NCBI GenBank assembly: GCA_023705985.1 | Contig: BPTO01000015.1 | Span: 1 to 33,303 of the forward strand | Direction of reading: 5' to 3' | DNA: 33,303 bases | DNA from: Candidatus Heimdallarchaeota archaeon | GTDB taxonomy: Archaea > Asgardarchaeota > Heimdallarchaeia > Heimdallarchaeales > Heimdallarchaeaceae | Part shown: positions 12,376 through 30,386 of the stretch, in pieces | Position numbering within the stretch: position 1 is the first letter of the stretch | Layout of the letters: each line of letters opens with the position of its first letter | The notes under the pieces: model-generated | What the model saw: only the letters and a program-made list of their open reading frames with translations | What the model was told of the DNA's origin: nothing | The model's database searches: none | Translations under genes and position numbers: made by a program

Positions 12376-12792
12376 TCATGGAGTTATTTGTAATGAAATG
12401 GGACCTATTTTTTTCAATTCTTCTACAAATTCTCTTACAACATCTGCAAATCTGTGACCTTCAGATGCTGAGACGAATTCGAAACGCACTCTATTTGGAT
12501 CTACTCCCATCTCCTTAAGGTATTTTTTCAATAGTTTAATCCTACGATTTGCTTTGTAATTACCTGATTTATAGTGACATTCACCGAAATGGCATCCTGA
12601 AATTAGTACACCATCAGCGCCTTTTTTTAGAGATTCTAGTATAAAAACTGGTTCTATTCTTCCTGAACACATTACTCTTATTATCTTAATATTAGTAGGA
12701 TATTGTATCCTGCTTGTACCAGCTAGATCTGCTCCTGCATAACTACACCAATTACAGAGAAATCCTATGATGTTTGGTTCAAATTCATCCAT
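12376..12792 (-). CDS. mvhD: MvhD-like [2Fe-2S] electron-transfer subunit, second copy
   Basis: The ~138-residue protein carries the conserved cysteine pattern of MvhD/FlxD: CNWCSYAGAD, VMCSGRI and GCHFGECHY. In methanogens MvhD passes electrons from the Mvh hydrogenase into HdrA. This copy closes the eleven-gene operon and lies next to the NuoG-HdrA fusion, so it likely connects to the split HdrA. I chose ATG 12792 because it lies one base after the upstream stop and has a GGAGA ribosome-binding site seven to eight bases ahead; a TTG at 12807 would add five residues. It is clearly paralogous to the protein at 22556-22996 (shared EPNIIGFLCNWCSYAGADLA). Confidence 0.92.
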   Translation of the reverse strand: MDEFEPNIIGFLCNWCSYAGADLAGTSRIQYPTNIKIIRVMCSGRIEPVFILESLKKGADGVLISGCHFGECHYKSGNYKANRRIKLLKKYLKEMGVDPNRVRFEFVSASEGHRFADVVREFVEELKKIGPISLQITP

Positions 12793-12793
12793 T

Positions 12794-14557
12794 TCAATTC
12801 TCTCCAAATGCTTTTATTATTGTCAATATTTGACCATCAGTATAGCCTAATTGACGAATAGCTCCATTAAGACATGCAGCTGCACACGTTCCACATCCTT
12901 TACAAAGAGCTTCATTAACTCTTGCGACATCTGTTGTATGTCCTAAATACTGTATTCTCACTAGTTCAATAGCTTGGTAAGGACAAGCATCAACACAAAA
13001 ACCACAAGCACGACAAAGTGTTTCATCAACATACGCTATTGTTGCTTCAATCTCAAGTTCTTTTTGGGAAAGAATGTTACAAACTCTAGAAGCAGCACTA
13101 CTAGCTTGAGCTACGGTATCTGGAATATCTTTAGGACTTTGACAGCTCCCTGCTAGAAATATTCCATCAGTAAAAGTATCAACAGGTCTAAGTTTGGGGT
13201 GAGCTTCTAAGAAGAAACCATCAGCACTAAGATTGATATTCAAAGTCTGTGCTAATTCTTTCGAATCTTCTCTTGGTATAAGACCTGTAGCTAATACAAC
13301 AAGATCAGCCTCTATGTCAGGATGACCTTCCGCTTTAACCACTACGCCATTACCATTTTGCACTACTTGTATAGTGTCATCTAATTCTCTTCTTAAATAG
13401 ATTATATTTTCACCTTGCACGCGATTGTAAAATTCCTCAAAGCCTTTACCAAAAGCTCGAACATCCGTAAAATAAATAGTCAGTTCTGAATCTGGAAACT
13501 TATCTCTAACCATGTGAGCTTGTTTAGCTGTGTACATGCAGCAGACCCTAGAGCAGTACTCATTTCCATCCTTATCTCTTGAGCCTACACATTGAATAAA
13601 AACTATATTCGTAGGTTCTTTGCCATTAACTTCAATATGACCTTCTGTTGGACCAGATGCTGAAACTAGTCTTTCGAATTCCATTCCAGTGATTACGTTT
13701 GGAAATTCTCCATAACCATATTTTGTCTCTGCAGTAGGATCAAATGAATCAAAACCTGAAGCTACTACAATTGCTCCTATATCTAGTTCGATAATTTCAT
13801 CTTCTTGATCATATTTTATTGCTTCTGCTTCACAAAAAATTGAGCAAGTTTCACATTCATCAAGTAGAAAATGTATACACTTCTCTCGATCTATAACCGG
13901 TATCTTCGGAACAGATTGTGGAAAGGGAATATAAATCGGATGTCTTTTAGCTAATCCTTCATTAAATTCAGATAAGATTGGATTAGGTTCTCTTAAAGAA
14001 AGCTCTTTTAATTCGAGCGTTCTGGCACCAGTTGGACAAACTGAAGCACAAGCACCACAAACTCTACATATTTCTGAATGGGTTTCAAAAGGTGGTTTAA
14101 TATCCCTTTCAATTCCTCTATTGATAAAATCTATAGTACCAACACCCATTCTTTCTTGACAAATACGAGCACATAAACCACAGAGTATGCAATCTTCATC
14201 CTTTTTCTTAAATCTAGTTTCTTTGACACCAAATTGTTCTGCAAGTTCTTGTATCTTCTCAGATTCAGGACATCGAGCAAGCATTAATTCAACCATTATT
14301 TTACGTCCTTTCAAGACTCTTTCCGTATTTGTTTGTACTTCTATACCTTCCATCACTGGAAATTGACACGAAGTATGATACATAATATTACCATTATGAT
14401 TTATCTCAACTACACAGAGTCTACAAGCGCCATAAGGACTTAATGCTTTATGATAACAAAGTGTTGGTATTTCAATACCAATAGAATTAGCAGCTTCCAA
14501 TATAGTTTGTCCTTCTTTTACTTCAACTTCTTGTCCATTTATAGATAATTTTACCAT
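12794..14557 (-). CDS. NuoG-type Fe-S N-terminus fused to the C-terminal half of HdrA
   Basis: The 587-residue protein is a chimera. Residues 1-80 are a plant-type [2Fe-2S] ferredoxin as at the N-terminus of NuoG or HydA (Cys34, 45, 48, 64). Residues ~120-180 bind two [4Fe-4S] clusters (Cys123, 126, 129, 133 and Cys164, 167, 170, 174). From ~195 onward it aligns with HdrA from about residue 258 to the end: Fe-S insertion with Cys227, thioredoxin-reductase-like core with TIVV-type strands, [37 protein letters not shown], and two C-terminal [4Fe-4S] motifs. The HdrA N-terminal Rossmann segment (GGGIAG) is missing and is supplied by the gene at 16466-17731. In trimeric HydABC the corresponding subunit carries the hydrogenase H-cluster at this place. 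The start overlaps the NuoF stop (TAATG). Confidence 0.9.
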   Translation of the reverse strand: MVKLSINGQEVEVKEGQTILEAANSIGIEIPTLCYHKALSPYGACRLCVVEINHNGNIMYHTSCQFPVMEGIEVQTNTERVLKGRKIMVELMLARCPESEKIQELAEQFGVKETRFKKKDEDCILCGLCARICQERMGVGTIDFINRGIERDIKPPFETHSEICRVCGACASVCPTGARTLELKELSLREPNPILSEFNEGLAKRHPIYIPFPQSVPKIPVIDREKCIHFLLDECETCSIFCEAEAIKYDQEDEIIELDIGAIVVASGFDSFDPTAETKYGYGEFPNVITGMEFERLVSASGPTEGHIEVNGKEPTNIVFIQCVGSRDKDGNEYCSRVCCMYTAKQAHMVRDKFPDSELTIYFTDVRAFGKGFEEFYNRVQGENIIYLRRELDDTIQVVQNGNGVVVKAEGHPDIEADLVVLATGLIPREDSKELAQTLNINLSADGFFLEAHPKLRPVDTFTDGIFLAGSCQSPKDIPDTVAQASSAASRVCNILSQKELEIEATIAYVDETLCRACGFCVDACPYQAIELVRIQYLGHTTDVARVNEALCKGCGTCAAACLNGAIRQLGYTDGQILTIIKAFGEN

Positions 14558-16473
14558 TACAAATCACCACTTGAAATTGATATTGCATCAAATCTACAGC
14601 TATCTAAACATATACCACATTTTATGCACTTTTCACTATTGATAAAGTGAGGTTCTTTTGTCTTTCCTGTAATTGCTTCTTCAGGACATAATTTGAAGCA
14701 TATTCCACACCCAGTACATTTATCTGGGATAATTGTGTAATGGATTAATGCTCTACAAACTTTAGCTGGACACTTTTTCTCCTCTATATGTGCTATATAT
14801 TCATCCTTGAAATATCTTAAAGTCGTTAGTACAGGATTTGGAGCTGTTTTACCAAGTCCACATAATGAAAAATCAATGATTACATGACTTAATTCTTCTA
14901 AAAGATCAAGATCACTAATTTCTGCTTTACCTTCTGTTATTCTGTTAAGTATATCATATGAAGCATCCAAACCTTCTCGACATGAATTACATGTTCCACA
15001 AGATTCTTCACGAGTAAAACCTAAGAAGAACTTAGCAAGGTCAACTATACAGGTATCTTCATCAAGAACTATCATACCACCAGAACCCATGATAGAACCT
15101 GCTTCAGAAAGACTATCATAATCGACTGGAAGGTTTATTGAATCCTCCGGTAAACAACCACCAGATGGTCCTCCTGTTTGTATTGCTTTGAATTTCTTCT
15201 CTTCTAGAATTCCCCCTCCTATGTCATATATGATTTCTCTTAAAGATATACCCATTGGAACTTCAACAAGTCCTGTATTTTGTATCTTTCCTACTAAGGA
15301 GAATACTTTTGTTCCTTTGCTTTTTTCAGTTCCTAATGAGGAATACCAATCGCTTCCTCTTGCAATTATAGGTGGAATGTTTGCCCAAGTTTCGACATTA
15401 TTGATATTTGTTGGTTTACCCCATAAACCAGAATGTGAAGGAAATGGAGGTCTCATTCTTGGGTCTACAGGTCTCCCTTCTAAGGATGCTATTAGAGCAG
15501 TTTCTTCTCCACAGACAAATGCTCCCGCACCTTTAACTATTTTGATATTAAAATTAAATCCAGTATCAAGAATGTTTTTACCTAATAAACCAAAGCCTTC
15601 TGCCTGTTTAATTGCATTTCTTAATTTCTCGATAGCAATAGGATATTCGGCTCGAACATAAATGATTCCCTCATTGGAACCTATAGCATACGCTCCAATT
15701 AACATGCCTTCAAGGATTGAATGAGGATCGCCTTCTAAGATACTTCGATCCATATAAGCACCAGGATCACCTTCATCAGCATTACAAATAATATATTTAA
15801 TGGGAGAATCTTCTTTAGAACACATCTCCCACTTCAATCCTGTGGGAAAACCAGCACCACCTCTCCCTCGAAGTCCAGACTTTTTGACTTCCTCTATAAC
15901 TTCATGTGACTTTAAATTATTTATTACTTTGTAAAAGGATGAGTAACCTCCTCGTGCAACATATTCGTCTATACTATTAGGATCAATAAAACCGCAGTTT
16001 CTTAAAGCTATTTTCAGCTGTTTAGCGAAAAATGGATAATCTTTGTATAATGGTACATCTTTGAGATTCTCATTTTTTCCTAAGTGATATTTTTCTTCGT
16101 TTATAATAGATTCTTCATCTTCAATTTTCCACAGAATCCAATCTTGTTTGATGTCACCAGCAGCTAATGCTTTGATTAACTCCCTTGCTTTTTTTTCAGT
16201 TAAATTACCATAAAACAATTTGGGTTTCCCAGGAAAATGAAAATATAAGAGAGGTTCTATCTGACAAAAACCTATGCATCCTGTTTCAGTTATAATCCAA
16301 TCTAGGTTTTGGTCCTTTACTTCTTTCTTTATTACTTCATAAATTTTACCAGCACCAGCTGCTAAACCACAAGTTGCCATACTAATTGCAATTCTTGGTT
16401 TATCTGGGTAGAGAATCTCTTGTCCTTTTGATTGTATATCCTCTAGAATTTGAAAACGAATTACTTCAGTCAT
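14557..16473 (-). CDS. NuoF/HydB-type NAD(H)-dependent diaphorase subunit
   Basis: This 638-residue protein matches HydB/HndC of electron-bifurcating hydrogenases more than plain NuoF. It has an N-terminal thioredoxin-like [2Fe-2S] domain (Cys35, Cys66, Cys70), the FMN/NADH-binding core ([15 protein letters not shown] at ~201-215, [33 protein letters not shown]), the N3-type cluster motif [12 protein letters not shown], and a C-terminal two-[4Fe-4S] ferredoxin ([23 protein letters not shown]). The expected reaction is electron exchange between NAD(H) and an Fe-S chain through FMN. It lies between the two halves of the split HdrA, overlapping the HdrA-NuoE gene by eight bases. NAD versus NADP preference is not readable. 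Confidence 0.94.
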
Positions 16474-17731
16474 ATTTACTAATCACCTTAGCTATTTTAT
16501 CTGGTCGAAGATTACCAAATGCTTCCCCATCTATGGTTATAACAGGTGCTAAACTACAGCATCCAAGACATCTGACAGGTTCCAGTGTAAATTTCATGTC
16601 TTCTGTAGTTTCACCTACATCAATTTTCAATTCACTTTTAATTGCTTCTATAATCTTAGGAGCACCTCTGACGTGGCAAGTTGTACCTATACAGACATTG
16701 ATAAGATGTTCCCCTCTTGGTTCCAAACTGAAAACATTGTAGAAAGTAGCAATTCGGTAAACTGTACTCAAAGGATAATCTATTTGAGCGGCGACATATT
16801 TCAGACTTTCTTCTGGCAAATATTTGAATTCATCATTGATATCTTCGAGGATAGGCATTATTGCCCCTCTTTCATCTTTATACTTGTTTATTATTTCATC
16901 CAGAATTACTTGTTCTCCATTTTTTAATTCTGCTTTAAATTCCAAAGGTTCAAGATAAGCTCTGTATTGCGTTGGACAATTTTCCCAACAATCCCCGCAA
17001 CCAGTACATAAGGATTCATCAATTGACTTTGCTTTCTTGTTAATTTCAACCTTGAAATTGCCAACATATCCTTTAACATTTGTAACTTCAGCATACGTAA
17101 TAAGTTCAATATTAGGGTGTTTAGCTACATCAACCATTTTTGGTGTTAAAATACAAGCAGAACAATCTAGAGTTGGGAAAGTTTTATCAAGTTGAGCCAT
17201 TCGCCCTCCAATACTTGGAGTTTTTTCTACTAAATAGGTTTTATAACCCATGTTTCCAATGTCTAATGCTGCTTGAATACCTGCAATTCCTCCTCCTATT
17301 ACCAATGCATTAGGAGTTACACTAACTTTTTTCTTTTCTAATGGTCTCATTAGAGAAGCACGAAGAACAGATCCTTTAACTAGCGATATAGCTTTTGCTG
17401 TTCCTTTCTCTTTATCTTTATGAACCCATGAAACCTGTTCTCTTATATTTACCATCTCAAGACAGTAAGGATTCAGGTTTTCTTCTTCAAGTACAACTCT
17501 AAAGGTTGGTTCATGCATTCTGGGCGAACATGAAGCGACAACAACTCTATCTAGTTTTAATTCTTTAATATCTTTCTTAATTAGTTCTTGACCAGGATCT
17601 GAACACATATATTTGTAATAACGACTTATAACAACATTTGGTAAAGATTTTGCACTATTAGCAACCTTTTCAACATCAACAGTAGCTGAAATGTTGATTC
17701 CACATTCACAAACATATACACCTATTCTCAT
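16466..17731 (-). CDS. N-terminal half of HdrA fused to a NuoE-type [2Fe-2S] domain
   Basis: The 421-residue protein is a chimera. Residues 1-~255 are nearly collinear with the N-terminus of the full HdrA encoded just upstream: start motif [24 protein letters not shown]-binding [14 protein letters not shown] (~146-159), [20 protein letters not shown] and a [4Fe-4S] motif [12 protein letters not shown] (~242-252). Then, instead of the C-terminal half of HdrA, a NuoE domain follows (~275-420): helical region with [16 protein letters not shown] and thioredoxin-like [2Fe-2S] ligands Cys347, Cys352, Cys388, Cys392 (CIGTTC, CLGCC). NuoE normally partners NuoF, the next gene. The missing HdrA half is found two genes on, fused to a NuoG N-terminus. 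ATGA overlap with the HdrA gene upstream. Confidence 0.92.
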
Positions 17732-19692
17732 ACAATCAAACTCCTTCGCTTCTCCAAGATTCCTCCTATTTGTGCAATAACTTGCTTATTGCTAAAATGG
17801 TTCATTGAAATTGCTCCAGTGGGACATGCAGCAGCACATGATCCGCATCCCTTACAAACTACATCATTAACTTTCATAATTTTATTTTCACTATCAAATT
17901 CCAAAGCTGAAAATGCACAAAGTTTTTCACAAATCCTACACCCACTGCACAGATCCTCATTAATCACCGCAGAAATAGCTTCTATGACCACTTTTCCTTG
18001 TGCTAAAGGTATTGTTGCTTTTACTGCAGCACCGCTTGCTTGAGCTACTGCATCAGGAATATCTTTAGGACTTTGACAACATCCAGCTATAAATATTCCA
18101 TCTGTAAAAGTATCTAAAGGTCGAAGTTTGGGATGAGCTTCTAAAAAGAAACCATCTGCACTTTGACTAATATTTAGCGTTTTTGCAAAATCTTTCGAAT
18201 CAGCTCTAGGAACTAGTCCTGTAGCAAGTACAACAAGATCAGCTGCTATGTCAGGATGACCTTCAGCTTTAACCATTACCGCACTACCATTATGTACTAT
18301 CTGTATAAAATCATTTAATTCTCTTCTTAAATAGATTACATTTTCGTTTTGCACGCGATTGTAAAACTCTTCAAAACCTTTACCAAAAGCTCGAATATCA
18401 GTATAATATACGAATATTTCAGAATCTGGAATTTTATCTCTAACCATATGAGCTTGTTTTGCTGTGTACATACAGCAAACTCTAGAACAGTACTCGTTAC
18501 CATCTTTATCTCTAGAACCTACACACTGAATGAAAACTATTTTCTTAGGTTCCTTACCATTTATTTCAAGATGTCCTTCTGTAGGGCCAGCTGCATTCGC
18601 TATTCTTTCAAACTCCATTCCAGTGATTACATTTGGAGATTCTCCATAACCATATTTTTTTTCTGTAGAAGGATCAAATGAATCAAAACCTGTTGCTACT
18701 ACAATTGTTCCCACATCTAGCTCAATAATTTCTTCTTCTTGGTTGAAATCTATTGCATCTCTTTCGCATGCTGCAACACAAAGCAATTCACTACCACATT
18801 TTCCAAATTTAAGCATATTACAGCGTTCTGGATCGATTGTATATTTCAGTGGAACAGCTTGGGGAAAGGGTACATAGATAGCACTTCTTTTACTCAGATT
18901 TTCATCAAATTCGTTTAACACTTTTCCTTTTAATCGACAAGCTTCTGCGCACAACCCGCAACCTACACATTTTTCAATATCAACATATCTAGGCTTCTTC
19001 TTTACTTTAACATTAAAATTACCAATATAACCACCTACCTCTTCAACTTCAGAGTAGGTGAGTAGTTCGATTTTTGGGTGTCTTGCTACATCCACCATCT
19101 TTGGTGTTAAAATACAAGCGGAACAATCTAAAGTTGGGAAAGTTTTATCAAGTTGAGCCATTCGCCCACCTAGACTAGGACTGCTTTCGACAAGATAGAC
19201 TTGAAAACCATTATTTGCAATTTCAAGAGCAGACTGTATACCGGCTATCCCACCACCTACAACAAGTGTTTTGGGAATAACATCAACTTCTTTTCTTTCT
19301 AAAGGTTCTAAAAATGCTGCTCTAGCAACGGCACCAGCGACTAGATCTATTGCTTTCAGAGTAGCTTTCTCTTTATTAGAATGAACCCAAGAAACATGCT
19401 CTCTAATGTTAACCATTTCAAAACAATATGGATTTACTCCTGTTTCTTCAACAACTGATCTAAAAGTAGATTCATGCATTCGTGGAGAACATGAAGCAAC
19501 AACTACTCTATCAAGATTAAAATCTATGATATCTTTTTTTATCGATTCTTGACCAGGATCTGAGCATGTGTATTTGTTAAGTCGACTAATGACTACATTA
19601 GGGAGAGATTTAGCTTCTTCTACTACTTTGCCTACATCTACTGTAGCTGCTATATTAATACCACATTCACAAACGTATACGCCTATATTCAC
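17728..19692 (-). CDS. hdrA: HdrA, flavin-containing bifurcating subunit (complete)
   Basis: The 654-residue protein has the full HdrA plan: N-terminal domain ([21 protein letters not shown]), FAD-binding Rossmann motif [14 protein letters not shown] (~146-159), [11 protein letters not shown] (~242-251), an inserted ferredoxin-like part, the thioredoxin-reductase-like core with [19 protein letters not shown] (~389-407), and two C-terminal [4Fe-4S] motifs ([24 protein letters not shown]). In methanogens HdrA bifurcates electrons from H2 to ferredoxin and to HdrBC. Here HdrBC are absent and Flx- and Nuo-type genes surround it. The start is GTG (19690-19692) with AAGGATGG just upstream. It is followed by its own N-terminal paralogue through an ATGA overlap. 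Confidence 0.96.
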
Positions 19693-19707
19693 TTTTATCC
19701 ATCCTTT

Positions 19708-20547
19708 TCACATATCGCCTTGAAGATTTTTTAATTGATTATACGAAAAAACAGGACCATCTTTGCACACATAGAGATTTCCTATATTACATCTTCCGCA
19801 GAATCCTATACCACATTTCATTCTCATTTCTAAAGTTGTAAATATCTGATCTTCAGAAAAACCTAGTTTCAATAGGTTTTGCATAACAAATTTAATCATA
19901 ATTGGCGGACCGCAAGTAATTGCAATAGTATTCTCTGGAGAGGGATCAAATCTCGTTAAATTATCTGGGACGAACCCTACATAATGATTCCATCCTTCTT
20001 CCTCTACATCTATCGAAAGATGAACATCACTATCTTCTCTTTTTTCTAAATCAGCTAATTCTTCCTTATAACAAAGATCTCCAGTAGTTCTTGCTCCATA
20101 GATAATATCTAGCTTGTTGTATTTTTCTCTATTATCAATTGCATAATTAATGAGAGCGCGAAGTGGAGCTTGACCTATCCCTCCTCCAATAAAGAGTAAG
20201 TTCTTATTTTTCCAACCATCAACATCAAAATGGTTTCCATATGGGCCTCGAACTCCCAATGTATCTCCAACTTCACATTCATGTAAGGCTGATGTTACTT
20301 TACCTAGTTTCATTACACTAGCTTCAATATAGCCTTTTTGAGTAGGTGAAGAGGAGATAGCAAAGAAACATTCTCCTGAGCCAAATAGACTTACCATAAT
20401 ACATTGACCAGGTAAAAAAGTGAAATTCTTTTTAACCTCTTCGTCTTGAAAAACTAACTTAAATGTTTTAATTGCTCTTTCTCCTATTACTTCATTTCTT
20501 ATTTCATCGATTGTTACTATCCAAGGTTGATAAGGATTCTCTGTCAT
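19708..20547 (-). CDS. FlxA/HydG-like FAD- and NAD(P)-binding reductase
   Basis: The 279-residue protein belongs to the ferredoxin-reductase-like family that includes sulfhydrogenase gamma (HydG), FlxA and dihydroorotate dehydrogenase electron-transfer subunits. It has an FAD-binding barrel (FLPGQCIMVSLFG, AISSSPTQKGY, RGPYGNHF), an NAD(P)-binding domain (LFIGGGIGQAPLRALI, CGPPIMIKFV) and a C-terminal [2Fe-2S] site (MKCGIGFCGRCNIG plus a later Cys). It would link pyridine nucleotide to the Fe-S chain of the next two proteins. It is the first of two nicotinamide-binding modules in this operon, the other being the NuoF-like protein. ATGA overlap with the FlxB-like gene; a paralogue lies at 26971-27831. 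Confidence 0.9.
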   Translation of the reverse strand: MTENPYQPWIVTIDEIRNEVIGERAIKTFKLVFQDEEVKKNFTFLPGQCIMVSLFGSGECFFAISSSPTQKGYIEASVMKLGKVTSALHECEVGDTLGVRGPYGNHFDVDGWKNKNLLFIGGGIGQAPLRALINYAIDNREKYNKLDIIYGARTTGDLCYKEELADLEKREDSDVHLSIDVEEEGWNHYVGFVPDNLTRFDPSPENTIAITCGPPIMIKFVMQNLLKLGFSEDQIFTTLEMRMKCGIGFCGRCNIGNLYVCKDGPVFSYNQLKNLQGDM

Positions 20548-21569
20548 ACTTTAACCTCCCTAACTTTAGCAATTACATCTATGATATCAATATTTACAGG
20601 ACAGAATTCAATACATCTTCCACAACCCGTACAAGCTGTATATTCACTGTTTTTTGGAAAGTAACTAAATTTGTGATAAACCCTGTTTCTTACTCTGTTC
20701 ATCCTTGCAGGTCTTGGGTTGTGACCTGATGCATGCATAGTATATTCTGAGTACATACACGAATCCCATACACGAATTCTAGCACCTTCTTTTAGGGTTG
20801 CTTCATCTTGCATATCAAAACAATGACAAGTTGGACAAAGGAAAGTACAAGTTCCACAACCAATACATTTCATTGCTATTGAATGCCATAATTGACTTTC
20901 AAATATTTCATCTAGTTTTTCTACAACACCCTCTAATTTCATATTGCGCTTTATTGTGTCAATTGCTTCTTTTTCAGCTGAATCCTTAAGGTTTTTATCT
21001 TCTTCAGTAGCTTTTTCGAATAAGTCAGTTATTTTTTCTACAAGTTTCTTACCTTTGTCACTTATAGTTTCAACAAAAAACTTTTCACCAATATCTGTAA
21101 ATAAGATATCCACAAACTTAGAAGAAGTGGGACTGTCTCCGAAAGATGTACAAAAACAATTAACTCCAGGATTATTACAACTCAATCCTATAAGAACACT
21201 ATTTTCTCTTTTAGATAAATACAAGGGATCCTTAAAATCACTATCAAAAACAGTATCCAAAATGCTAAAGCTCTTTGCATCACAAGGACGAATTGCGAAA
21301 ATTATTTTTTTATCTTCAGAAATTTCTTTTGGTAGTATTTTTCCTTTCCTTCCAGGTTTAAATTTAAACAAAGTCTCAGTTTGTTGAAGTAGAATAGATT
21401 TAGGTGGTAATCGTGAATTAACAAAGTCTAAGTTAATATCTGAGGGTTTGGAGATTAGTTTATATTCAAAAATATTATCTTTTCTCGTTGGAGCAAAAAC
21501 ATCATATTCATCTGACAGTTTTTCAATGAAAGTTGGGAGTGTTTTTTTTAGTAAGACAAAGCTATCCAT
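20544..21569 (-). CDS. FlxB/HydB-like two-[4Fe-4S] electron-transfer protein
   Basis: The 341-residue protein matches the sulfhydrogenase beta (HydB/AsrA) family. An N-terminal ~220-residue region with FAIRPCDAKSFSILD and GLSCNNPGVNCFC is followed by CIGCGTCTFLCPTCHCFD (~236-253) and CTGCGRCIEFCPVNIDI near the C-terminus, giving two [4Fe-4S] clusters. In sulfhydrogenase this subunit conducts electrons between the hydrogenase small subunit and the flavoprotein; the corresponding Flx subunit serves HdrA. A good ribosome-binding site (GAGGTTA) precedes the ATG. The homologous gene of the divergent operon is at 25928-26968, so each hydrogenase has its own copy of the beta-gamma pair. Confidence 0.88.
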   Translation of the reverse strand: MDSFVLLKKTLPTFIEKLSDEYDVFAPTRKDNIFEYKLISKPSDINLDFVNSRLPPKSILLQQTETLFKFKPGRKGKILPKEISEDKKIIFAIRPCDAKSFSILDTVFDSDFKDPLYLSKRENSVLIGLSCNNPGVNCFCTSFGDSPTSSKFVDILFTDIGEKFFVETISDKGKKLVEKITDLFEKATEEDKNLKDSAEKEAIDTIKRNMKLEGVVEKLDEIFESQLWHSIAMKCIGCGTCTFLCPTCHCFDMQDEATLKEGARIRVWDSCMYSEYTMHASGHNPRPARMNRVRNRVYHKFSYFPKNSEYTACTGCGRCIEFCPVNIDIIDVIAKVREVKV

Positions 21570-21578
21570 TTTTTAACC

Positions 21579-22562
21579 TCACAAAATAAATTCCTCGGGA
21601 TCATCCGGTTTAAACGTACCTAGTAATGGTTTCGCCTCTTCACTTATACCCGGAATGTAATCATATATCTCCATAATATTCTTCTCAAGTTTCTTATTTA
21701 GTTCAGTGAGTGGAATATCCATTGGACAAACACGTTCACATTCACTACAACCAACACATCTGCCTGCTAGATGTAGTGCACGCATTATATTCCAAGCTGT
21801 ATTTTCCGATAGATTCACTGAACGTCTAACCCATCGAGGATCTAGCTGATCAACCATACATTCCTTACAATAGCATAAAGGGCATGCATCACGACAAGCA
21901 TAACAACGGATGCATCGTTGAAAATGCTCTTCCCAATAAGCCCATTTTTCTTTTTGAGATTTGCTTTCAACAACTTTTACTTTTTCATAAGTTTCTTTGT
22001 TTGTTGATTTTATTTCTTCACCGATTAAAATATCATAAATAGGAGGATTAGGGTATTCACAATTTATACAAGCATCAAAAAGTAATTCTTCTTTTGGAAT
22101 AGTATGATTCTCTTCATTGAATTTGATAGAGAAACTGCTGTCTTTTTCCTCAATTTCAACAATTTCTGCGTAATTTGGATACCTAGACTTCAGTTTTTTT
22201 GGGTTTACCACGCCTGTACAAGGAATACCAATTAGAACAACATCTTCTCTTTTTAGACCCTTTTCTTGAATGATTTGTACAACTGCTCTAGAATCGCATC
22301 CTTTAACTACAAGTCCAATTTTCCGAGTATCTTCTTTCTCATCTCTACCCAAAGGGAGTTTCTCTTCTAACTTTGGATAGATTGCTAAATTGTGAACACA
22401 TAAAGGAGTAAAAATGAATTTTTCAGCTTCTTCAGAAGAATGAGCAAAAGAAGGAGTTACTTCACATCCATATGTTCCTTTTTCGTACCCCACAACGTAT
22501 TTTACATCTTCTCTAGAAACAGTTTTCTTCACTGCATCTACTAGTTGTTCTTGATTTACCAT
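21579..22562 (-). CDS. FlxC-like iron-sulfur protein with FrhB-like N-terminal part
   Basis: The 327-residue protein has a first half reminiscent of FrhB/FdhB-type proteins (GLVVKGCDSRAVVQIIQEKG, LIGIPCTGVVNP, DACINCEYPNPP) and a second half with several clusters: CIRCYACRDACPLCYCKEC (~217-235) and CVGCSECERVCPMDIPL (~270-286). I place it as FlxC-like by gene order (MvhD/FlxD, FlxC, FlxB, FlxA next to HdrA), which matches the Flx-Hdr gene set of sulfate reducers; family assignment by motif alone is less sure. F420 or flavin binding cannot be judged. It overlaps the MvhD gene by seven bases. Confidence 0.75.
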   Translation of the reverse strand: MVNQEQLVDAVKKTVSREDVKYVVGYEKGTYGCEVTPSFAHSSEEAEKFIFTPLCVHNLAIYPKLEEKLPLGRDEKEDTRKIGLVVKGCDSRAVVQIIQEKGLKREDVVLIGIPCTGVVNPKKLKSRYPNYAEIVEIEEKDSSFSIKFNEENHTIPKEELLFDACINCEYPNPPIYDILIGEEIKSTNKETYEKVKVVESKSQKEKWAYWEEHFQRCIRCYACRDACPLCYCKECMVDQLDPRWVRRSVNLSENTAWNIMRALHLAGRCVGCSECERVCPMDIPLTELNKKLEKNIMEIYDYIPGISEEAKPLLGTFKPDDPEEFIL

Positions 22563-22996
22563 TCGTTTACCCTCCTTATTTGTTTCATAGGGCCAATTTT
22601 CCGAATATCTTCAGTTATTTCTTCAACAACTTCAGCAAATTTTCTTCCTTCTGCTGCTGATACCCAAGTCATACGAACTCTTTCTGGTTCGATTCCTAAA
22701 AATTCAAGTAAATTCTTTAAAATAGTTATTCGTCTTCTTGTAAAATAATTTCCGTGTTGATAATGGCAATCACCAGGATGACATCCACCTATTAACACAC
22801 CATCAGCTCCTTGTTGAAGTGCATTAACAACAAACATGGGATTTATCCTTCCTGAACACATTACTCTAATTATTTTTACATTTGGTGGATATTGCATCCT
22901 GCTCGTACCAGCTAAATCAGCACCAGCATATGAACACCAATTGCAGAGAAATCCAATAATGTTTGGTTCAAATTCTTGGATAGTTTCTACTGTCAA
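22556..22996 (-). CDS. mvhD: MvhD/FlxD-like [2Fe-2S] electron-transfer subunit, first copy
   Basis: The 146-residue protein has the MvhD cysteine pattern (CNWCSYAGAD, VMCSGRI, GCHPGDCHY). It lies directly after the hydrogenase large-subunit gene, as in mvhAGD-type clusters, and should carry electrons from the hydrogenase to HdrA. The start is TTG (22994-22996), only four bases after the upstream stop, with the sequence AGAGGAGAT as ribosome-binding site inside the end of the large-subunit gene; no ATG lies near the N-terminus. A second copy ends the operon at 12376-12792. Confidence 0.93.
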   Translation of the reverse strand: MTVETIQEFEPNIIGFLCNWCSYAGADLAGTSRMQYPPNVKIIRVMCSGRINPMFVVNALQQGADGVLIGGCHPGDCHYQHGNYFTRRRITILKNLLEFLGIEPERVRMTWVSAAEGRKFAEVVEEITEDIRKIGPMKQIRRVNEW

Positions 22997-23000
22997 AATC

Positions 23001-24461
23001 CTAATCTCCTCTTTCTATTGTTTTAAGTAATTTCTGTTCATGAGAGTATAGTTCTATTTTCAAAGGCATTTTTCCTGGAAGAGAATGTGTTGCACATGCA
23101 AAACAGGGATCATATGCTCGAAATGCCATTTCAACCATATTCAATAAGCCGTCATTAACTACTCCCTTCTTTATAATTCCTTTCGCTGCGTCTCGTATTG
23201 ACATGCTTATTGCAGCAGAATTATTAGTGGTTGCTACTACTAAATTAGTTTTTTCGATTAGACCTTTTTCATCTAGTTTATAATGATGAATCAAAGTACC
23301 TCTTGCAGCTTCAGTAACGCCTATACCCTCTCCTGGTTCTCCAACAGGATTTCTGATATCGCTTGAAGTTATTTCAGGATCGTTGACTAATTCCATTGCT
23401 CTTTCAGTAGCATATAGTAATTCTATTAATCTAGCCCAATGAAAAGCTAAAGTAGAATTGACAGGTCTCCCGCCTAGTGTTTCATACATCCTTTTGTATT
23501 CATCATTAGCTAACGAAGTAGCCATTCCGTCTGCAGCATTCAACCTTCCTAATGGACCTACTCTATAAATTCCGCTTTCTTTGCCATCAACAAATCCTTT
23601 CCAACCTACTTTTGTGAGATAGGGGAATTTAATGTAACTCCATTCTTCAACGTGCTCGTCTATATGTTTGAAATAATCATTAACATCAAATTTGAGAAAT
23701 TCTTTACCAGATTGATCTGAAACCCTGATTAATCCATCATAGAAATTTACTTTGTTATTTTCATCAACTAATCCCATATTATAAGTTTTCAAAGTATAAG
23801 GATCGCTCAGAATTAAATTAACATAATCTTCATTTTTTAATACAATGTCATCAAATAATTTAAGAGAGAATTGTGCAAAATCTATACAAGATTTCGTCAG
23901 ATTTTTAATTTCATCAGCTTCGTCTTTAGAAAGAGATTTAGAAACTCCACCTGGAAGTCCACAAACTGGATGAGTTGCCTTACCACCAAGTATTGCAGTT
24001 ATTCTTTGTCCATATGACCTATGTTTGATAACTTCTTTTCCTATTTCTATACCAGCTTTTTCTATAACTCCAATAATATTTCTCTTTGCAGCTGGAGCAG
24101 TAGGGCCTACAACAAAATCCGGTCCTCCTAAGTAATAGAAATGGAGTATGTGATCATAAATGAAATAACCACAATACATGAGTTCTCTTAGTTTTTTAGC
24201 TGTAGGAGTAGGATCAACATTGAAAGCAGCATCAAGTGTCTTTGTAGATGCAAAATGATGTGCTACAGGACAAACTCCACATATTCTAGAAGTAATTTGT
24301 GGCATATCTTCTGCTCTTCTTCCCTGAGAAAAGCGCTCAAAACCCCTAAGTTCAGGTATTTGAAGATAAACATTCGCAACATCTCCTTCAGGATCTAAAA
24401 AGATAATGATTTTTCCATGTCCTTCCAAACGTGTAATGGGATTAATTGTTACAGTTTTCAT
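23001..24461 (-). CDS. mvhA: [NiFe] hydrogenase large subunit, Mvh-type (group 3c-like)
   Basis: The 486-residue protein holds the NiFe active site. The L1 motif is RICGVCPVAHH with Cys61 and Cys64; the L2 motif is DPCFACATH with Cys453 and Cys456. After His459 a 27-residue tail (SLPGK... to GD) remains, expected to be cut off by a maturation protease after metal insertion. All four nickel ligands are Cys codons, so no selenocysteine is involved. The neighbourhood (MvhG-, MvhD- and HdrA-like genes) supports group 3c, the H2-oxidising partner of Hdr. ATGA overlap with the small-subunit gene. The only protease gene nearby lies in the divergent operon (29931-30386). Confidence 0.95.
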   Translation of the reverse strand: MKTVTINPITRLEGHGKIIIFLDPEGDVANVYLQIPELRGFERFSQGRRAEDMPQITSRICGVCPVAHHFASTKTLDAAFNVDPTPTAKKLRELMYCGYFIYDHILHFYYLGGPDFVVGPTAPAAKRNIIGVIEKAGIEIGKEVIKHRSYGQRITAILGGKATHPVCGLPGGVSKSLSKDEADEIKNLTKSCIDFAQFSLKLFDDIVLKNEDYVNLILSDPYTLKTYNMGLVDENNKVNFYDGLIRVSDQSGKEFLKFDVNDYFKHIDEHVEEWSYIKFPYLTKVGWKGFVDGKESGIYRVGPLGRLNAADGMATSLANDEYKRMYETLGGRPVNSTLAFHWARLIELLYATERAMELVNDPEITSSDIRNPVGEPGEGIGVTEAARGTLIHHYKLDEKGLIEKTNLVVATTNNSAAISMSIRDAAKGIIKKGVVNDGLLNMVEMAFRAYDPCFACATHSLPGKMPLKIELYSHEQKLLKTIERGD

Positions 24462-25471
24462 TCTTTCACCTTCTTGTTTATTATAGCAGTAGGTAAGCCA
24501 TATTTGTAAAAAGTACCAACTGGATCAACCACTTGTTCAATCAGCTTTTCTACTTCTTCATCACTCATGTTTTCTTCATCTTCTAGACCTAGAATTGAAG
24601 CAATAGCTGATATCATACTTGCACCTTGGTCAAGTGAATTGGGCGCGGGACCACCACAACCAGTACAAGGCATATTAGCATCTAAACACTGAGCTTTACA
24701 CCCTCCTCGTGTCGCAGGACCTAAACATATAACTCCTTGTTCAAGAAGACACTTTTCCTCAATTGTTTCAAGTTCGTAGATTCGTTTTATCTCTTTTATT
24801 GTCTTTTCAGATTTTTCAAACCTACATTCATCACAAACAGATTTTAGTGGTCCAATAATAGACCCTTTTGGGGGTAATTTATTCTCAGCAATAGCTCCTA
24901 TAGCTGTCATAATCAAATCAGGATGGGGAGGGCAACCAGGTAGAAAATAATCTACCTCAACAACTTGATCAAGACTCTTAACAACATCATAGAATTCAGG
25001 TAGAGTTAAAATCCCTTCTTCAACTTCTGTAGATGTTTTTGGTAAAATTTTTTGAGGATTTGATGTGGAAGGATTTTCAAGATAAGAAACACGAAAAACT
25101 TCATCTTTACTCGCTAAATTAGCTAATCCTGGGATTCCTCCATTAACTGCACATGCTCCAAAGGCGATTAGAGTTTTGGATTTCTTTCTGAGAAGATTTG
25201 CTAGATGTTCATGTTCAGATGTTCTTATCGATCCATTGAAAAAACAGACATCAATATGATTATCTTCCATTTCTTCAACATCTTTGTATTTAAAATCAAG
25301 AGCTACTGGCCAAAAAAGAATGTCTGCAATAGCAATAACATCTAATATTTTCTCATCTATGTCTAAAACAGCAATTTCGCAACCACCACAGCTGGCTGCC
25401 CAATAAAAAGCTAATTTTAACTTACTAACGGTATTAGTAGTAGTTTTTTCATCACTTTCTTCTATATTCAT
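24458..25471 (-). CDS. mvhG: [NiFe] hydrogenase small subunit, Mvh-type
   Basis: The 337-residue protein carries Fe-S ligands of a group 3 small subunit: CGGCE (Cys28, Cys31), FGACAVNGG, FLPGCPPHPD, CDECRFEK and the C-terminal run CLGPATRGGCKAQCLDANMPCTGCGGP, split here for clarity as CLGPATRGGCKAQC and CTGCGGP. There is no twin-arginine signal, so the enzyme is cytosolic. It transfers electrons from the NiFe site to MvhD. It is the first gene of the eleven-gene operon. AAAAGGTGAA upstream of ATG serves as ribosome-binding site; the promoter probably lies at TTTAATTAA (25525-25533) or the TATA-like element at 25583-25592, both read on the minus strand. The acidic, low-complexity N-terminal ~15 residues are not part of the conserved fold. 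Confidence 0.93.
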   Translation of the reverse strand: MNIEESDEKTTTNTVSKLKLAFYWAASCGGCEIAVLDIDEKILDVIAIADILFWPVALDFKYKDVEEMEDNHIDVCFFNGSIRTSEHEHLANLLRKKSKTLIAFGACAVNGGIPGLANLASKDEVFRVSYLENPSTSNPQKILPKTSTEVEEGILTLPEFYDVVKSLDQVVEVDYFLPGCPPHPDLIMTAIGAIAENKLPPKGSIIGPLKSVCDECRFEKSEKTIKEIKRIYELETIEEKCLLEQGVICLGPATRGGCKAQCLDANMPCTGCGGPAPNSLDQGASMISAIASILGLEDEENMSDEEVEKLIEQVVDPVGTFYKYGLPTAIINKKVKE

Positions 25472-25927: not shown

Positions 25928-26968
25928 ATGAAAACATATAAGATGTCTAAAGAAAAGTTTCCAGAATTCGTAGAACTCATAAAGACCAAAGGGAAACTTT
26001 ATGGACCAGTTAAACAAAAGGAGAAATATTCTTTTGAGGAAATTAATGATCATTCAGATTTAGATTTCGACTATCAAAGAACAGTTATTAGTCCAAAGAA
26101 GTTTCTCACTCCACCTCGTTACAATACTTTACGTTTTGTAAAATTTGGACAAACAGATGTTTTTCCTGATGATGAGCTACAAATAGTTCTGGGAGTACAT
26201 CCGTGTGATATTCATGCTATTAAGATCTTAGATAGATTATTTCTAGGTAACATCAAAGATCCATACTACGCAAAAAGAAGAGAAAATCTAATAATAATCG
26301 GTCACTCTTGCCTTCCTGATGAGAATTGTGTATGTCAATCAACAGGAACTGATATGGTTGAAGATGGATTTGACATGTTTTTCACAGAATTAAAAGATTA
26401 TTTCTTAGTTTGGGTGGGTTCAGATAAAGGACTTAGTATTGCTATAGATGCAGGAGACCTATTGAATGAAACTATTTCGGAAGAAGAAATTCAAGAGTAT
26501 GTCAGATGGCAACAAGATAGATCAACAATGTTTAAGAAAGAAATCCCTTCTTTCAAATACTTAGCCGATATTATTCACTTGAACTATGATAGTAATGTGT
26601 GGGAGCAGTTTGGAGAAAAATGTCTTTCTTGTGGAACATGCAGCTTAGTCTGCCCAACTTGTAATTGTTTTAATGTTAATGACAAAATTAGTATGAATGC
26701 AGAAGAAGGTTTCAGAGAAAGAATGTTAGATAGCTGTACTCTTCCACACTTCTCCATGGTTGCAGGAGGGCATGATTTTAGACCAGATAGAACATCAAGA
26801 TTGAAATTATATTTTACTCACAAATTAAAAGAATATATCGGGAAATATGGACAACCCAGCTGTGTAGGATGTGGACGTTGTATAGCATACTGTCCAGTTG
26901 ATATAAATGTAATCTCTGTTTCTGAAGCGCTTCTTGAAGAAGTATGCAAAAAAGTGGAGGAGTGTTAA
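25928..26968 (+). CDS. hydB: Sulfhydrogenase beta subunit (two-[4Fe-4S] protein)
   Basis: The 346-residue protein is the HydB/AsrA-type electron carrier of group 3b hydrogenases. The N-terminal domain contains VLGVHPCDIHAIKILDRLF and GHSCLPDENCVCQ. The cluster motifs are CLSCGTCSLVCPTCNCFN (~231-248) and CVGCGRCIAYCPVDINV near the end. It carries electrons between the hydrogenase dimer and the flavoprotein HydG. It opens the operon in the order beta, gamma, delta, alpha, the same as hydBGDA in Pyrococcus. It is paralogous to the FlxB-like protein at 20544-21569. The start is leaderless with a well-placed TATA box. Confidence 0.93.
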   Translation: MKTYKMSKEKFPEFVELIKTKGKLYGPVKQKEKYSFEEINDHSDLDFDYQRTVISPKKFLTPPRYNTLRFVKFGQTDVFPDDELQIVLGVHPCDIHAIKILDRLFLGNIKDPYYAKRRENLIIIGHSCLPDENCVCQSTGTDMVEDGFDMFFTELKDYFLVWVGSDKGLSIAIDAGDLLNETISEEEIQEYVRWQQDRSTMFKKEIPSFKYLADIIHLNYDSNVWEQFGEKCLSCGTCSLVCPTCNCFNVNDKISMNAEEGFRERMLDSCTLPHFSMVAGGHDFRPDRTSRLKLYFTHKLKEYIGKYGQPSCVGCGRCIAYCPVDINVISVSEALLEEVCKKVEEC

Positions 26969-26970
26969 AT

Positions 26971-27831
26971 ATGACATTAGCTAGTAATGGTAAAAAAATA
27001 GAAACTTACAAAACTAATCCAGTAGAAATATTGACTCTTAAGGATCTGACCAAAGATACTCGATATTTTAAAGTAAGATTCAAAGAGGAGAAGTTGAATG
27101 AGAATTTCAAGTATAGACCCGGTCAATTTGTTATCTTTTCTATTCCTGGTGTTGGAGAAGCTACTTTTTCATTATCATCCCCTCCAACGAGAAGAGGTTT
27201 CATAGAATTTGGTATCAGAAAAGTAGGTACTTTTACTGATGCACTTTTCAAGCTTAAAAAAGGTGACACTTTTCATTTAAGAGGTCCTTATGGAGATGGT
27301 TTTGAACTTGAAAGTCTAAAAGGAAGAGATCTAATAATAGTTACGGGTGGATTGGGTGCTATTCCTTTACGTTCAGTACTGCTTTACGTTGAAGATAGGA
27401 GAGAAGAATATAACCAAGTTTTCTTCTTGAATGGAGCAAGAAATCCTGGAGAAATGCTTTACAAAGAAGACTTCACTGCAATGGCTCATAGAGAGATAAT
27501 TGAAACACATCTCTCCGTTGATAACGATGACACTGGAGAATGGCCTTACAATATTGGTGTGGTTACAACACTTTTTCCAAAAATATCTGATAGAGTGGTT
27601 AGCGAGAACACTACAGCGATAATCTGTGGTCCGCCAATCATGTACAAATACGTAATTCAAGAGCTTTTGAAATTGAATGTACCAAAAGATCAGATACTAA
27701 TGACACTTGAAAGAAGAATGAAATGTGGTCAAGGACATTGTGGACACTGTGCAATCGAAGGGAGATATACTTGTCTAGAAGGACCTGTTTTCACGTATTA
27801 TGATGTTCAACATATTAAGGAGCTGATTTAA
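26971..27831 (+). CDS. hydG: Sulfhydrogenase gamma subunit (FAD/NAD(P)-binding)
   Basis: The protein binds FAD and NAD(P)H and carries one [2Fe-2S] cluster: YRPGQFVIFSIPG, FSLSSPPTRRGF and RGPYGDGF for FAD; VTGGLGAIPLRSVLLY and CGPPIMYKYV for the nucleotide; MKCGQGHCGHCAIEG plus a later Cys for the cluster. It exchanges electrons with NAD(P)H in the cytosol. A longer frame begins at ATG 26944 inside hydB, but I chose ATG 26971: it follows the hydB stop by two bases and has a clear GGAGG ten bases ahead (26956-26960). That gives 286 residues. It is paralogous to the FlxA-like protein at 19708-20547. Confidence 0.94.
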   Translation: MTLASNGKKIETYKTNPVEILTLKDLTKDTRYFKVRFKEEKLNENFKYRPGQFVIFSIPGVGEATFSLSSPPTRRGFIEFGIRKVGTFTDALFKLKKGDTFHLRGPYGDGFELESLKGRDLIIVTGGLGAIPLRSVLLYVEDRREEYNQVFFLNGARNPGEMLYKEDFTAMAHREIIETHLSVDNDDTGEWPYNIGVVTTLFPKISDRVVSENTTAIICGPPIMYKYVIQELLKLNVPKDQILMTLERRMKCGQGHCGHCAIEGRYTCLEGPVFTYYDVQHIKELI

Positions 27832-27832
27832 A

Positions 27833-29916: not shown

Positions 29917-29930
29917 TGGAGATCTATTAA

Positions 29931-30386
29931 TTGTCTTTTTTCTCTTTTTTTCATAAAGAACAAGAGAATTTCATTTTTCTTTGCTTTGGGAATGTTGACA
30001 GATCCGATGATGGTCTTGGATTATTGATAGCAAAGAGTCTTAAAGAGAAATTTCCTGACAAAGTAATTTCAGAGGATGAAATAGATATAACATCCTATCT
30101 TCTAGAAATAATTGATAATACAGCGATCGAAGTTGTAATAATTATAGATGCTATAGATTTTGGAGCACAACCTGGAACTTTGTTAATTACCTCTAGAATA
30201 GATAAAGCTGTTAGACAAATATCCTCTCATCAGCTACCATTCCAACAAATAGTAAAAATCCTAACAGATAATAATAAAGAAGTGGTTCTATGCGGAATTC
30301 AAATCAAAACAACAGAATTTATGGGTAAAATGTCAGATGAAGTACTCGAAGGAATCAGAAATTTATTATCTTATTTTGTTGATTAA
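29931..30386 (+). CDS. Hydrogenase maturation protease (HycI/HyaD family)
   Basis: The 151-residue protein has the family's nickel-sensing motifs: FGNVDRSDDGLG (residues ~19-30), IIIDAIDFGAQPGT (~70-83) and SSHQLPFQ (~97-104), giving the usual acidic, acidic and His ligands. It clips the C-terminal peptide from the large subunit once nickel is in place. The start is TTG (29931), supported by GGAGAT at 29918-29923; no suitable ATG exists. Because it ends the group 3b operon, HydA is its likely substrate. Whether it also processes the longer tail of the Mvh-type subunit is open, as no second protease is in the window. It converges with the nitroreductase gene. Confidence 0.92.
   Translation: MSFFSFFHKEQENFIFLCFGNVDRSDDGLGLLIAKSLKEKFPDKVISEDEIDITSYLLEIIDNTAIEVVIIIDAIDFGAQPGTLLITSRIDKAVRQISSHQLPFQQIVKILTDNNKEVVLCGIQIKTTEFMGKMSDEVLEGIRNLLSYFVD

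Follow-up and report, generated by a model that had tools for sequence, protein, structure and literature searches.

In methanogens, electrons from H2 travel through MvhA, MvhG and MvhD to the flavin adenine dinucleotide (FAD) of HdrA, where they are split between HdrBC and, via an inserted ferredoxin domain, free ferredoxin (PMC9012536); Glu356 and Lys409 of HdrA have been linked to bifurcation (PMC12054007). Mvh-Hdr and Flx-Hdr have both been reported in Asgard archaea (PMC7015854). A second family of bifurcating enzymes, Bfu (HydABC), is defined by the iron-sulfur clusters of its BfuB subunit, non-bifurcating relatives being without B2-B5, and HdrA combined with BfuABC has been published in the Bam complex (PMC9304861). 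HdrA with a GltD/NfnB insert is known as HdrL (PMC2702500), as HdrA 9-11 of ANME-1 (anaerobic methanotrophic archaea; PMC9012536) and as type III HdrA (PMC12054007), and nuoEFG/mvhD/hdrA gene units have been described in the cultured sulfate reducer Desulfotignum phosphitoxidans (PMC4046663). Here we analyze an eleven-gene operon in a 33,303-nucleotide stretch of DNA (the window) from a Candidatus Heimdallarchaeota archaeon (GenBank assembly GCA_023705985.1, contig BPTO01000015.1), in which Mvh, Flx, HdrA and Bfu parts stand side by side and a second HdrA is divided between two hybrid proteins. We regard it as an evenly balanced proposition that the operon encodes one soluble electron-bifurcating or -confurcating complex, built from an Mvh hydrogenase, FlxD-C-B-A with a complete HdrA (HdrA1), and the split HdrA with Bfu and a second MvhD (MvhD2).

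An operon of Mvh, Flx, HdrA and Bfu genes

The window is contig C15 of genome G000, an assembly of 3.6 Mb in 387 contigs that is 89.9% complete. Eleven open reading frames (ORFs), all on the minus strand, run from 25471 down to 12376 in the transcription order MvhG, MvhA, MvhD1, FlxC, FlxB, FlxA, HdrA1, HdrA-N~NuoE, NuoF, NuoG-N~HdrA-C and MvhD2 (a tilde marks a fusion), with gaps of -4, 4, -7, 9, -4, 15, -4, -8, -1 and -14 bases. A first-pass annotation made from the letters alone had described eleven minus-strand genes that overlap or lie at most 15 bases apart and that join Mvh, Flx, HdrA and NuoEFG-type parts. The spacing (-14 to +15) agrees with that description, and Pfam and NCBIfam searches support the joining of these parts and every one of the gene labels; what the annotation overlooked is that the two hybrids are halves of one HdrA.

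The first gene encodes the small subunit of a group 3c [NiFe] hydrogenase, MvhG/VhuG (24458..25471, 337 residues; PF01058, E 4.6e-27), and the second the [NiFe] catalytic subunit, MvhA/VhuA (23001..24461, 486 residues; PF00374, E 1.4e-39), in which both metal-binding cysteine pairs are present in the metal-ligand motifs RICGVC and DPCFAC. VhuG and VhuA are the best NCBIfam models for these subunits, at scores below the curated cut-offs (217.6 bits against 450 for MvhG, 425.8 against 800 for MvhA), and MvhD and HdrA are linked to them; by these features the predicted hydrogenase is of group 3c (Mvh/Vhu). The adaptor MvhD1/FlxD follows (22556..22996, 146 residues; PF02662, E 1.1e-58), then FlxC, a FrhB/FdhB-family iron-sulfur protein (21579..22562, 327 residues; Fer4, with PF04432 weak and just below its cut-off) that matches the F420 formate dehydrogenase beta-type chain 9t1s_M (E 8.7e-27). 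FlxB is a HydB/AsrA-like iron-sulfur protein (20544..21569, 341 residues; PF17179, ShyB model 247.6 bits) and FlxA a HydG/AsrB-like FAD/NAD(P)-binding reductase with a C-terminal 2Fe-2S site (19708..20547, 279 residues; PF00175, PF00970, PF10418 and motifs). HdrA1 is a complete HdrA of 654 residues (17728..19692), covering the HdrA2 model from 2 to 645 at 847.9 bits and aligning over residues 5-650 with 5odc_A.

The next three genes are those of the hybrid cassette. HdrA-N~BfuC (16466..17731) joins HdrA residues 1-256 to a NuoE/HydC-like BfuC (275-420), as judged from the HdrA2 model (1-257), PF01257 (E 5.4e-51) and Protein Data Bank (PDB) matches. The BfuB/HydB-like NuoF has 638 residues (14557..16473; PF01512, E 1e-47). 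BfuA~HdrA-C (12794..14557) carries a NuoG/HydA-type ferredoxin domain (1-180; PF13510) followed by HdrA residues 255-642 (HdrA2 model 255-642 and PDB matches). The adaptor MvhD2 is the last gene (12376..12807, 143 residues; PF02662, E 8.4e-57). No membrane subunit is found among the eleven genes, and a domain scan of the operon finds neither HdrB nor HdrC, the genes for which sit on contig C55 of the same genome.

The C55 operon (L139, 5512-17142) encodes three 2-oxoacid:ferredoxin oxidoreductase subunits, then FlxD-C-B-A, HdrA, HdrC and HdrB; its FlxD is 85% identical to MvhD1, and its FlxC is syntenic with the FlxC of the window at 63% identity. Because MvhD1-FlxC-FlxB-FlxA-HdrA1 matches C55 FlxD-C-B-A-HdrA gene for gene, the operon of the window appears to be put together from three blocks: MvhG-MvhA; FlxD-C-B-A-HdrA1; and HdrA-N~NuoE, NuoF, NuoG~HdrA-C and MvhD2. 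The C55 operon also holds a further ferredoxin-type protein and a FAD_binding_2 protein, and the reading frame of its HdrA is broken before 13234 and continues in another frame.

One HdrA divided between two proteins

The two hybrids cover the stretches 1-257 and 255-642 of the HdrA2 model and align with residues 5-259 and 261-642 of chain A of 5odc. Because the model positions are complementary, HdrA-N~BfuC and BfuA~HdrA-C are the halves of one complete HdrA, cut at about residue 256. According to the junction alignment, the cut falls within the inserted ferredoxin domain: HdrA-N stops just past its first CxxCGxCxxxC motif, where NuoE begins, and on the other side the second CxxCxxCxxxC motif of NuoG itself replaces the expected HdrA motif, after which HdrA resumes. 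The FAD domain is thereby shared out, with the N-terminal domain and the first FAD half on HdrA-N~BfuC and the second FAD half and C-terminal ferredoxin on BfuA~HdrA-C; the two halves would fold together as one FAD domain. Two unrelated HdrA fragments, or the debris of a pseudogene, are ruled out by the complementary breakpoints and by the recurrence of the fusions in other genomes.

HdrA1 and the split HdrA both retain the FAD motif, the equivalent of Cys197 and the bifurcation-linked Glu and Lys, and in these residues both resemble a bifurcating HdrA. The bifurcation residues were located by hand on the 5odc alignment, where Glu356 and Lys409 correspond to E295 and K345 of BfuA~HdrA-C. These two are unchanged in all 11 aligned rows, the window included, and D189, C190 and C193 of HdrA-N are unchanged in all 13 of theirs.

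A Bfu-type core between the halves

NuoF has an N-terminal thioredoxin-like 2Fe-2S region, a CPAKVC motif and two C-terminal 4Fe-4S motifs. Its nearest PDB matches are 9bov_B, the best, and 7t2r_B, the B subunit of the electron-bifurcating NiFe-HydABCSL, with which it aligns nearly over its full length. The individual motifs of BfuB, taken as those of clusters B1-B5, are ESCGTC, CPAKVC, GCIGFC and two CxxCxxCxxxC; the identity of BfuC is backed by PF01257. The NuoG part, BfuA, shows no His-Cys3 motif and no PF10588 match, and is fused to half a flavin domain. Because NuoF carries the BfuB/HydB signature (N-terminal 2Fe-2S, CPAKxC, two C-terminal 4Fe-4S motifs), the trio looks like a bifurcating core of the Bfu/HydABC type, and not merely a NADH dehydrogenase. 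A complex I-type NADH dehydrogenase is ruled out by the Bfu-type motifs of NuoF together with NuoF being the only PF01512 match found in G000, a genome that is about 90% complete. The NuoEFG/HydABC trio named in the first-pass annotation is thus present, and its reading is refined to a bifurcating Bfu core plus a split HdrA.

With a Bfu core of this kind in place, the split HdrA could itself be non-bifurcating. Its FAD would then serve as a relay or structural scaffold, in line with a proposal made for the NADP-binding FAD of Nfn-Bfu, and bifurcation would take place at the flavin mononucleotide (FMN) core of Bfu alone. The FAD of Nfn-BfuA has been argued not to be a bifurcation site (PMC9304861), and the BfuB of the window carries the B-cluster motifs. 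We nevertheless consider a silent split HdrA somewhat unlikely, as E295 and K345, the counterparts of residues with a role in bifurcation (PMC12054007), are invariant in the rows compared, and HdrA1 retains its Glu and Lys too.

Conservation among Asgard archaea

A search with BfuA~HdrA-C over 227 genomes of the phylum, in which no more than five candidates were scored in each genome and matches were listed down to about 352 bits, returned matches at E <= 1e-60 in 215 genomes. Among the matches listed, the protein is full length, from residue 1, in three genomes: G000, G027 and G010. G027 carries all eleven genes in the same order across two contigs, the first with FlxB to MvhD2 and the second with a group 3b hydrogenase, MvhG, MvhA, MvhD, FlxC and the beginning of FlxB. 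The contigs overlap by 119 identical bases within FlxB, whose reading frame stays intact across the join. The first-pass annotation had proposed looking for synteny, and the eleven-gene order does recur in G027, with one addition. Between BfuA~HdrA-C and MvhD2 lies an extra ORF of 164 residues for a HycI-type hydrogenase maturation protease (Pfam; L039, 2484-2978, minus strand), whose closest match in G000 is on contig C157 (62%).

That annotation had also named outcomes that would speak against its reading, among them a chimeric gene order and parts lying in separate loci. The first is not what we see. The genomes compared are mostly fragmented metagenome assemblies, which speaks for a misjoined contig; a chimera is here hardly conceivable, given that G027 has this gene order and that 49 assemblies yield the junction at 51 loci. 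Separate parts do exist, in the Flx-HdrABC operon of C55 and in G010, where Mvh accompanies the split HdrA and Bfu without Flx; the joined form is also conserved. The operon of G010 reads HdrC, HdrB, HdrA-N~NuoE, NuoF, NuoG~HdrA-C, MvhD, MvhG and MvhA, so that MvhD comes after the split-HdrA/Bfu cassette there too. Contig C76 of G010 (L145) holds another Mvh-Flx arrangement, with an MvhA only 49% identical to that of the window.

The HdrC-HdrB pair directly preceding the cassette in G010, and the HdrB and HdrC encoded beside another Flx-HdrA in G000 itself, invite the thought that the complex borrows HdrB and HdrC from a separate operon and is at heart a Flx- or Mvh-driven disulfide reductase. 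This we consider quite improbable, because no HdrB match was found in the 14 family loci that hold parts of the operon, and the HdrC matches there are weak (25-31%) and, judged from their positions, fall in the ferredoxin motifs of HdrA chains or of a neighboring nitroreductase.

A search with FlxC at E <= 1e-80 gave 28 matches in 19 of the 227 Asgard genomes; MvhA directly precedes MvhD-FlxC at 12 of them, one in each of 12 genomes, 15 are without MvhA in the stretch shown, and one ends at a contig end.

Probable exchange of the insert in HdrA

In five relatives (G024, G016, G009, G013 and G019) the three Bfu-bearing ORFs are replaced by one protein of 1117-1121 residues with the layout HdrA-N, an insert of about 460-500 residues, and HdrA-C; the G019 locus is cut off inside MvhA. 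Domain scans identify the insert in L041 and L046 as a NfnB/GltD-like FAD/NAD(P) protein, with PDB matches for L041, and in the other three relatives it was judged from length and position. Four truncated loci (G026, G023, G018 and G012) hold parts of the operon, and three of them have long HdrA ORFs of the same geometry, by which they were judged; the remaining one ends too early to show it. The HycI-type gene likewise precedes MvhD2 in six NfnB-type loci, those of G024, G016, G009, G013, G026 and G023, two of which were domain-scanned (L041, 15325-15816, and L042, 15369-15863, both plus strand); the window and G019 have no such ORF at this place.

The NfnB insert enters HdrA about 45 residues later than the Bfu cut. 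HdrA-flank identity was compared in 40-residue segments between G000 and G027 on one side and three NfnB-bearing HdrAs and G010 on the other. At a distance from the insert, G000 and G027 share 60-95% identity with the NfnB-bearing HdrAs in these flanks and in every case match G010 less well. In the segment that adjoins the insert, G010 is the closer in three of the four comparisons (65 vs 52-58, 64 vs 43-48 and 78 vs 43-48) and about equal in the fourth (62 vs 60-65); on the C side of the insert only 21 columns are comparable with the NfnB type. These flank identities look like a recombination mosaic in which the NAD(P) module of one HdrA slot was exchanged. A tree of seven rows from FlxA, HdrA1 and MvhD2 weakly rejects a grouping in which the two Bfu genomes stand together, apart from the five with NfnB (approximately unbiased test, p-AU 0.029), which suggests at least two exchanges of the insert. 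In a tree of the HdrA flanks, HdrA1 and the insert-bearing HdrA resemble sister paralogues with modest support, one of nine inner branches being well supported and the bootstrap not settled.

Bacterial loci with the same junction

GTDB contigs were scanned with a 167-residue alignment of the junction, starting from two peptide patterns and so not exhaustively, and 80 of 81 confirmed loci were kept. The whole junction is matched in 51 of these, from 49 assemblies (CP070692.1 and DAOWCM01 have two each), while the other 29 match mainly on the NuoG side. Two of the 51 are Asgard (G027 and G010) and 49 bacterial, by title mostly Desulfobacteraceae and other deltaproteobacteria, with further loci in Planctomycetes, TA06, Gemmatimonadota, Stahlbacteria, Spirochaetes, Acidobacteria and Eisenbacteria and two titled only "bacterium". 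When in-frame TGA is read through, HdrA-N~NuoE is one ORF in 14 of the 51 and NuoG~HdrA-C in 50. Flx adjoins the cassette in 18 loci (17 of the 49 bacterial ones) and Mvh in seven (six of the 49). In L051, L052 and L056 the BfuB ORFs have 1017-1038 residues with an additional NfnB-like match in the same chain, a hybrid not met with in the literature consulted, and the Stahlbacteria locus L059 holds a split HdrA with Bfu, a tandem HdrA-HdrA chain, HdrC and FlxC-B-A together.

In 38 of the 51 loci, all bacterial, a second HdrA follows the C half of the split HdrA in one chain, mostly of about 1080 residues (in L057, L058, L060 and L061 only if an in-frame TGA is taken as a sense codon). Of the 14 HdrA-N~NuoE ORFs, those of the two Asgard loci and of L053 have a match to the N-terminal HdrA domain and the other 11 do not, so that 11 of 12 bacterial ORFs are without it; the Cys197 site is kept across the 13-row alignment. 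The second HdrA of the tandem chains is the reverse of this: it has the N-terminal domain in 37 of 37 scored chains and a DCSxCIL-type (Cys197) site in none of the 37. The 38th chain, L060, was left unscored, having no match to the first FAD lobe, and pattern hits in L051, L056, L073 and L085 fall in the C-terminal ferredoxin and not at the Cys197 site. In ANME archaea, complementary loss of the N-terminal domain and of Cys197 has served as the argument for HdrA heterodimers (PMC9012536). The complementary pattern in bacteria connects the split HdrA with a second one, a connection that the neighboring HdrA1 suggests for the window too. At four of six deltaproteobacterial loci inspected by eye (L069, L074, L078 and L117), the short HdrA ORF before NuoE has an in-frame TGA at the Cys197 position, which is consistent with selenocysteine.

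A NuoF tree was built from 69 rows, one for each locus with a match over 330 residues (L049 and L050 were dropped as copies of L039 and L040). The three Asgard rows group together (100/100), then weakly with Stahlbacteria (84/46), and Asgard, TA06, Planctomycetes and Gemmatimonadota rows are grouped at 93/96. The topology, whose root is arbitrary, fits a transfer of the cassette from bacteria. The 45 split-HdrA rows require five label changes on this tree, which does not establish a single origin.

A proposed complex and electron path

If the eleven genes act together, the product would most likely be a complex that works reversibly, by bifurcation and confurcation, among H2, ferredoxin and NAD(P)H and that contains two HdrA and a single Bfu core. 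The two HdrAs would pair as in the known HdrA dimer. BfuA would occupy the place where free ferredoxin docks on an ordinary HdrA and so wire the ferredoxin exit of HdrA into the Bfu FMN core, at which NADH and reduced ferredoxin would meet. From there electrons could reach the hydrogenase by way of BfuA, the split HdrA and MvhD2 in turn. As the operon has no HdrBC and BfuA directly continues the inserted ferredoxin domain, we infer an exchange of electrons between the FAD of the split HdrA and the Bfu FMN core, which would handle NAD(H) and ferredoxin. Flx would give a second entry for NAD(P)H via MvhD1 and HdrA1. Reported potentials are about -280 mV for NADH, about -380 mV for NADPH, about -500 mV for ferredoxin and -414 mV for H2 (PMC9304861); with these values, H2 release can be driven by oxidizing ferredoxin and NAD(P)H together. 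In a fermenter this would be the likeliest direction, and the reverse would be H2 uptake.

A bolder version, which we hold only tentatively and think somewhat more doubtful than not, is that the FAD domain is built from two polypeptides with the Bfu FMN core replacing the free-ferredoxin site, that two bifurcation chemistries work in series, and that HdrA is a socket for exchanged NAD(P) modules. With Bfu in series with HdrA, one enzyme would have two unlike bifurcation sites, a case that would test whether bifurcation engines can be stacked. The socket is suggested by the replacement of a free-ferredoxin dock with a whole NAD(P) module that differs between close relatives. The operon comes from an Asgard lineage of the Heimdall type and so also has a bearing on the way in which the eukaryotic host's relatives dealt with hydrogen.

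The same operon could instead encode two enzymes, Mvh-Flx-HdrA1 with MvhD1 and a separate complex of split HdrA, Bfu and MvhD2 with other partners. There are two copies of MvhD, one for each HdrA; FlxD-C-B-A-HdrA occurs away from any hydrogenase elsewhere in G000; and the cassette with MvhD is found without Flx in G010 and in several bacteria. We judge this division unlikely, though a serious contender, since the genes overlap or almost touch throughout the operon, this place in the operon is taken in the sister species by a single-chain HdrA bearing an NfnB-like insert, and in bacteria the split HdrA often shares a polypeptide with a second one.

Several observations weigh against a single complex with an exchanged module. 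The full eleven-gene set is known only from the window and, across a contig break, from G027; the HycI-type gene in G027 and the six NfnB-type loci means that the gene string is not invariant, and G000 has its separate Flx-HdrABC operon besides. Mvh and Flx stand together beside the cassette in none of the 51 whole-junction loci, within flanks of at most 10 kb that are limited by contig ends (the G027 locus starts inside FlxB). Both HdrAs of the window are complete, without the complementary loss of the ANME type, and nothing in their sequence forces them to pair. The likeness to G010 beside the insert could also reflect selection for contact with BfuA rather than recombination. AlphaFold models of the two half-HdrA proteins are of low confidence, with a mean predicted local distance difference test score (pLDDT) of 67.1 and 56.9. 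The HdrA-N~BfuC model is poorest in its half FAD domain, with most residues below 50 between 131 and 264; this may mean that the domain depends on its other half, but the shallowness of the alignment, at 13 rows, accounts for it just as well.

Neighboring genes

Upstream and divergent from the operon lies another operon, for a group 3b-type [NiFe] hydrogenase (subunits B, G, D and A) and a HycI-type maturation protease (25928..30386, plus strand; Pfam), which is not part of the complex. Group 3b genes also adjoin the 3c operon in L041, L042, L043 (B only, at a contig end), L045, L171 and L172; the divergent group 3b hydrogenase of the window is found in G027 as well. Elsewhere in the window are a TnpB-like protein with a Cas12f1-like TNB domain (4396-5874, plus strand), a gelsolin-repeat protein (6139-6765, plus strand), of a kind typical of Asgard archaea, and a PALP-family enzyme with weak C-terminal matches of the PadR/winged-helix type (31357-32700, minus strand).

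Comparison with known systems

The first-pass annotation knew of no described complex with this composition. The exact set of Mvh, Flx, two HdrA and Bfu was indeed not found in the literature searched, nor was a HdrA split around NuoEFG/Bfu; the search, of full texts, is incomplete and does not settle priority. As a general statement the claim was too strong, because related combinations have been published (PMC9304861, PMC4046663, PMC2702500, PMC9012536, PMC12054007). The split cassette itself also occurs in deltaproteobacteria and several other bacterial groups, where we have not seen it described as such in the same literature.

With MvhADG-HdrABC (PDB 5odc) the operon shares MvhA, MvhG, MvhD and HdrA, including the FAD motif, the Cys197 equivalent and the bifurcation residues; it differs in being without HdrB and HdrC, in having two HdrAs, one of them split, and in the added Flx and Bfu. 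FlxABCD-HdrABC has the same FlxD-C-B-A-HdrA order, whereas in the window Flx is joined to a hydrogenase and Bfu, again without HdrBC. The bifurcating signature of BfuB and BfuC is that of Bfu/HydABC and of NiFe-Bfu (HydABCSL, 7t2r), but here BfuA and BfuC are each fused to half a HdrA and the hydrogenase is a group 3c Mvh. Bfu Type 2 is marked by a BfuA lacking the A3 and A5 clusters and by a third substrate that other subunits handle. In BfuA of the window the 2Fe-2S motif and both 4Fe-4S motifs are retained and His-Cys3 is missing, which points to Type 2; its fusion to half the flavin domain of HdrA points to Type 1, in which BfuA bears a flavin domain.

Bam-Bfu (the benzoyl-CoA reductase BamB-I) likewise combines a HdrA module with BfuABC and has an MvhD-like BamF, but its substrate module is a W-enzyme and not a hydrogenase. 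In D. phosphitoxidans NuoEFG is grouped with HdrA and MvhD as in the window; the part of that report dealing with these units describes a gene grouping only and mentions no split HdrA. HdrL and type III HdrA have the form seen in the sister species, where L041 and L046 carry a NfnB/GltD-like insert within HdrA at the same operon position. The window differs from them in that the insert consists of three Bfu subunits with none of the GltD type, that the host HdrA is in two chains, and that the point of entry lies about 45 residues earlier.

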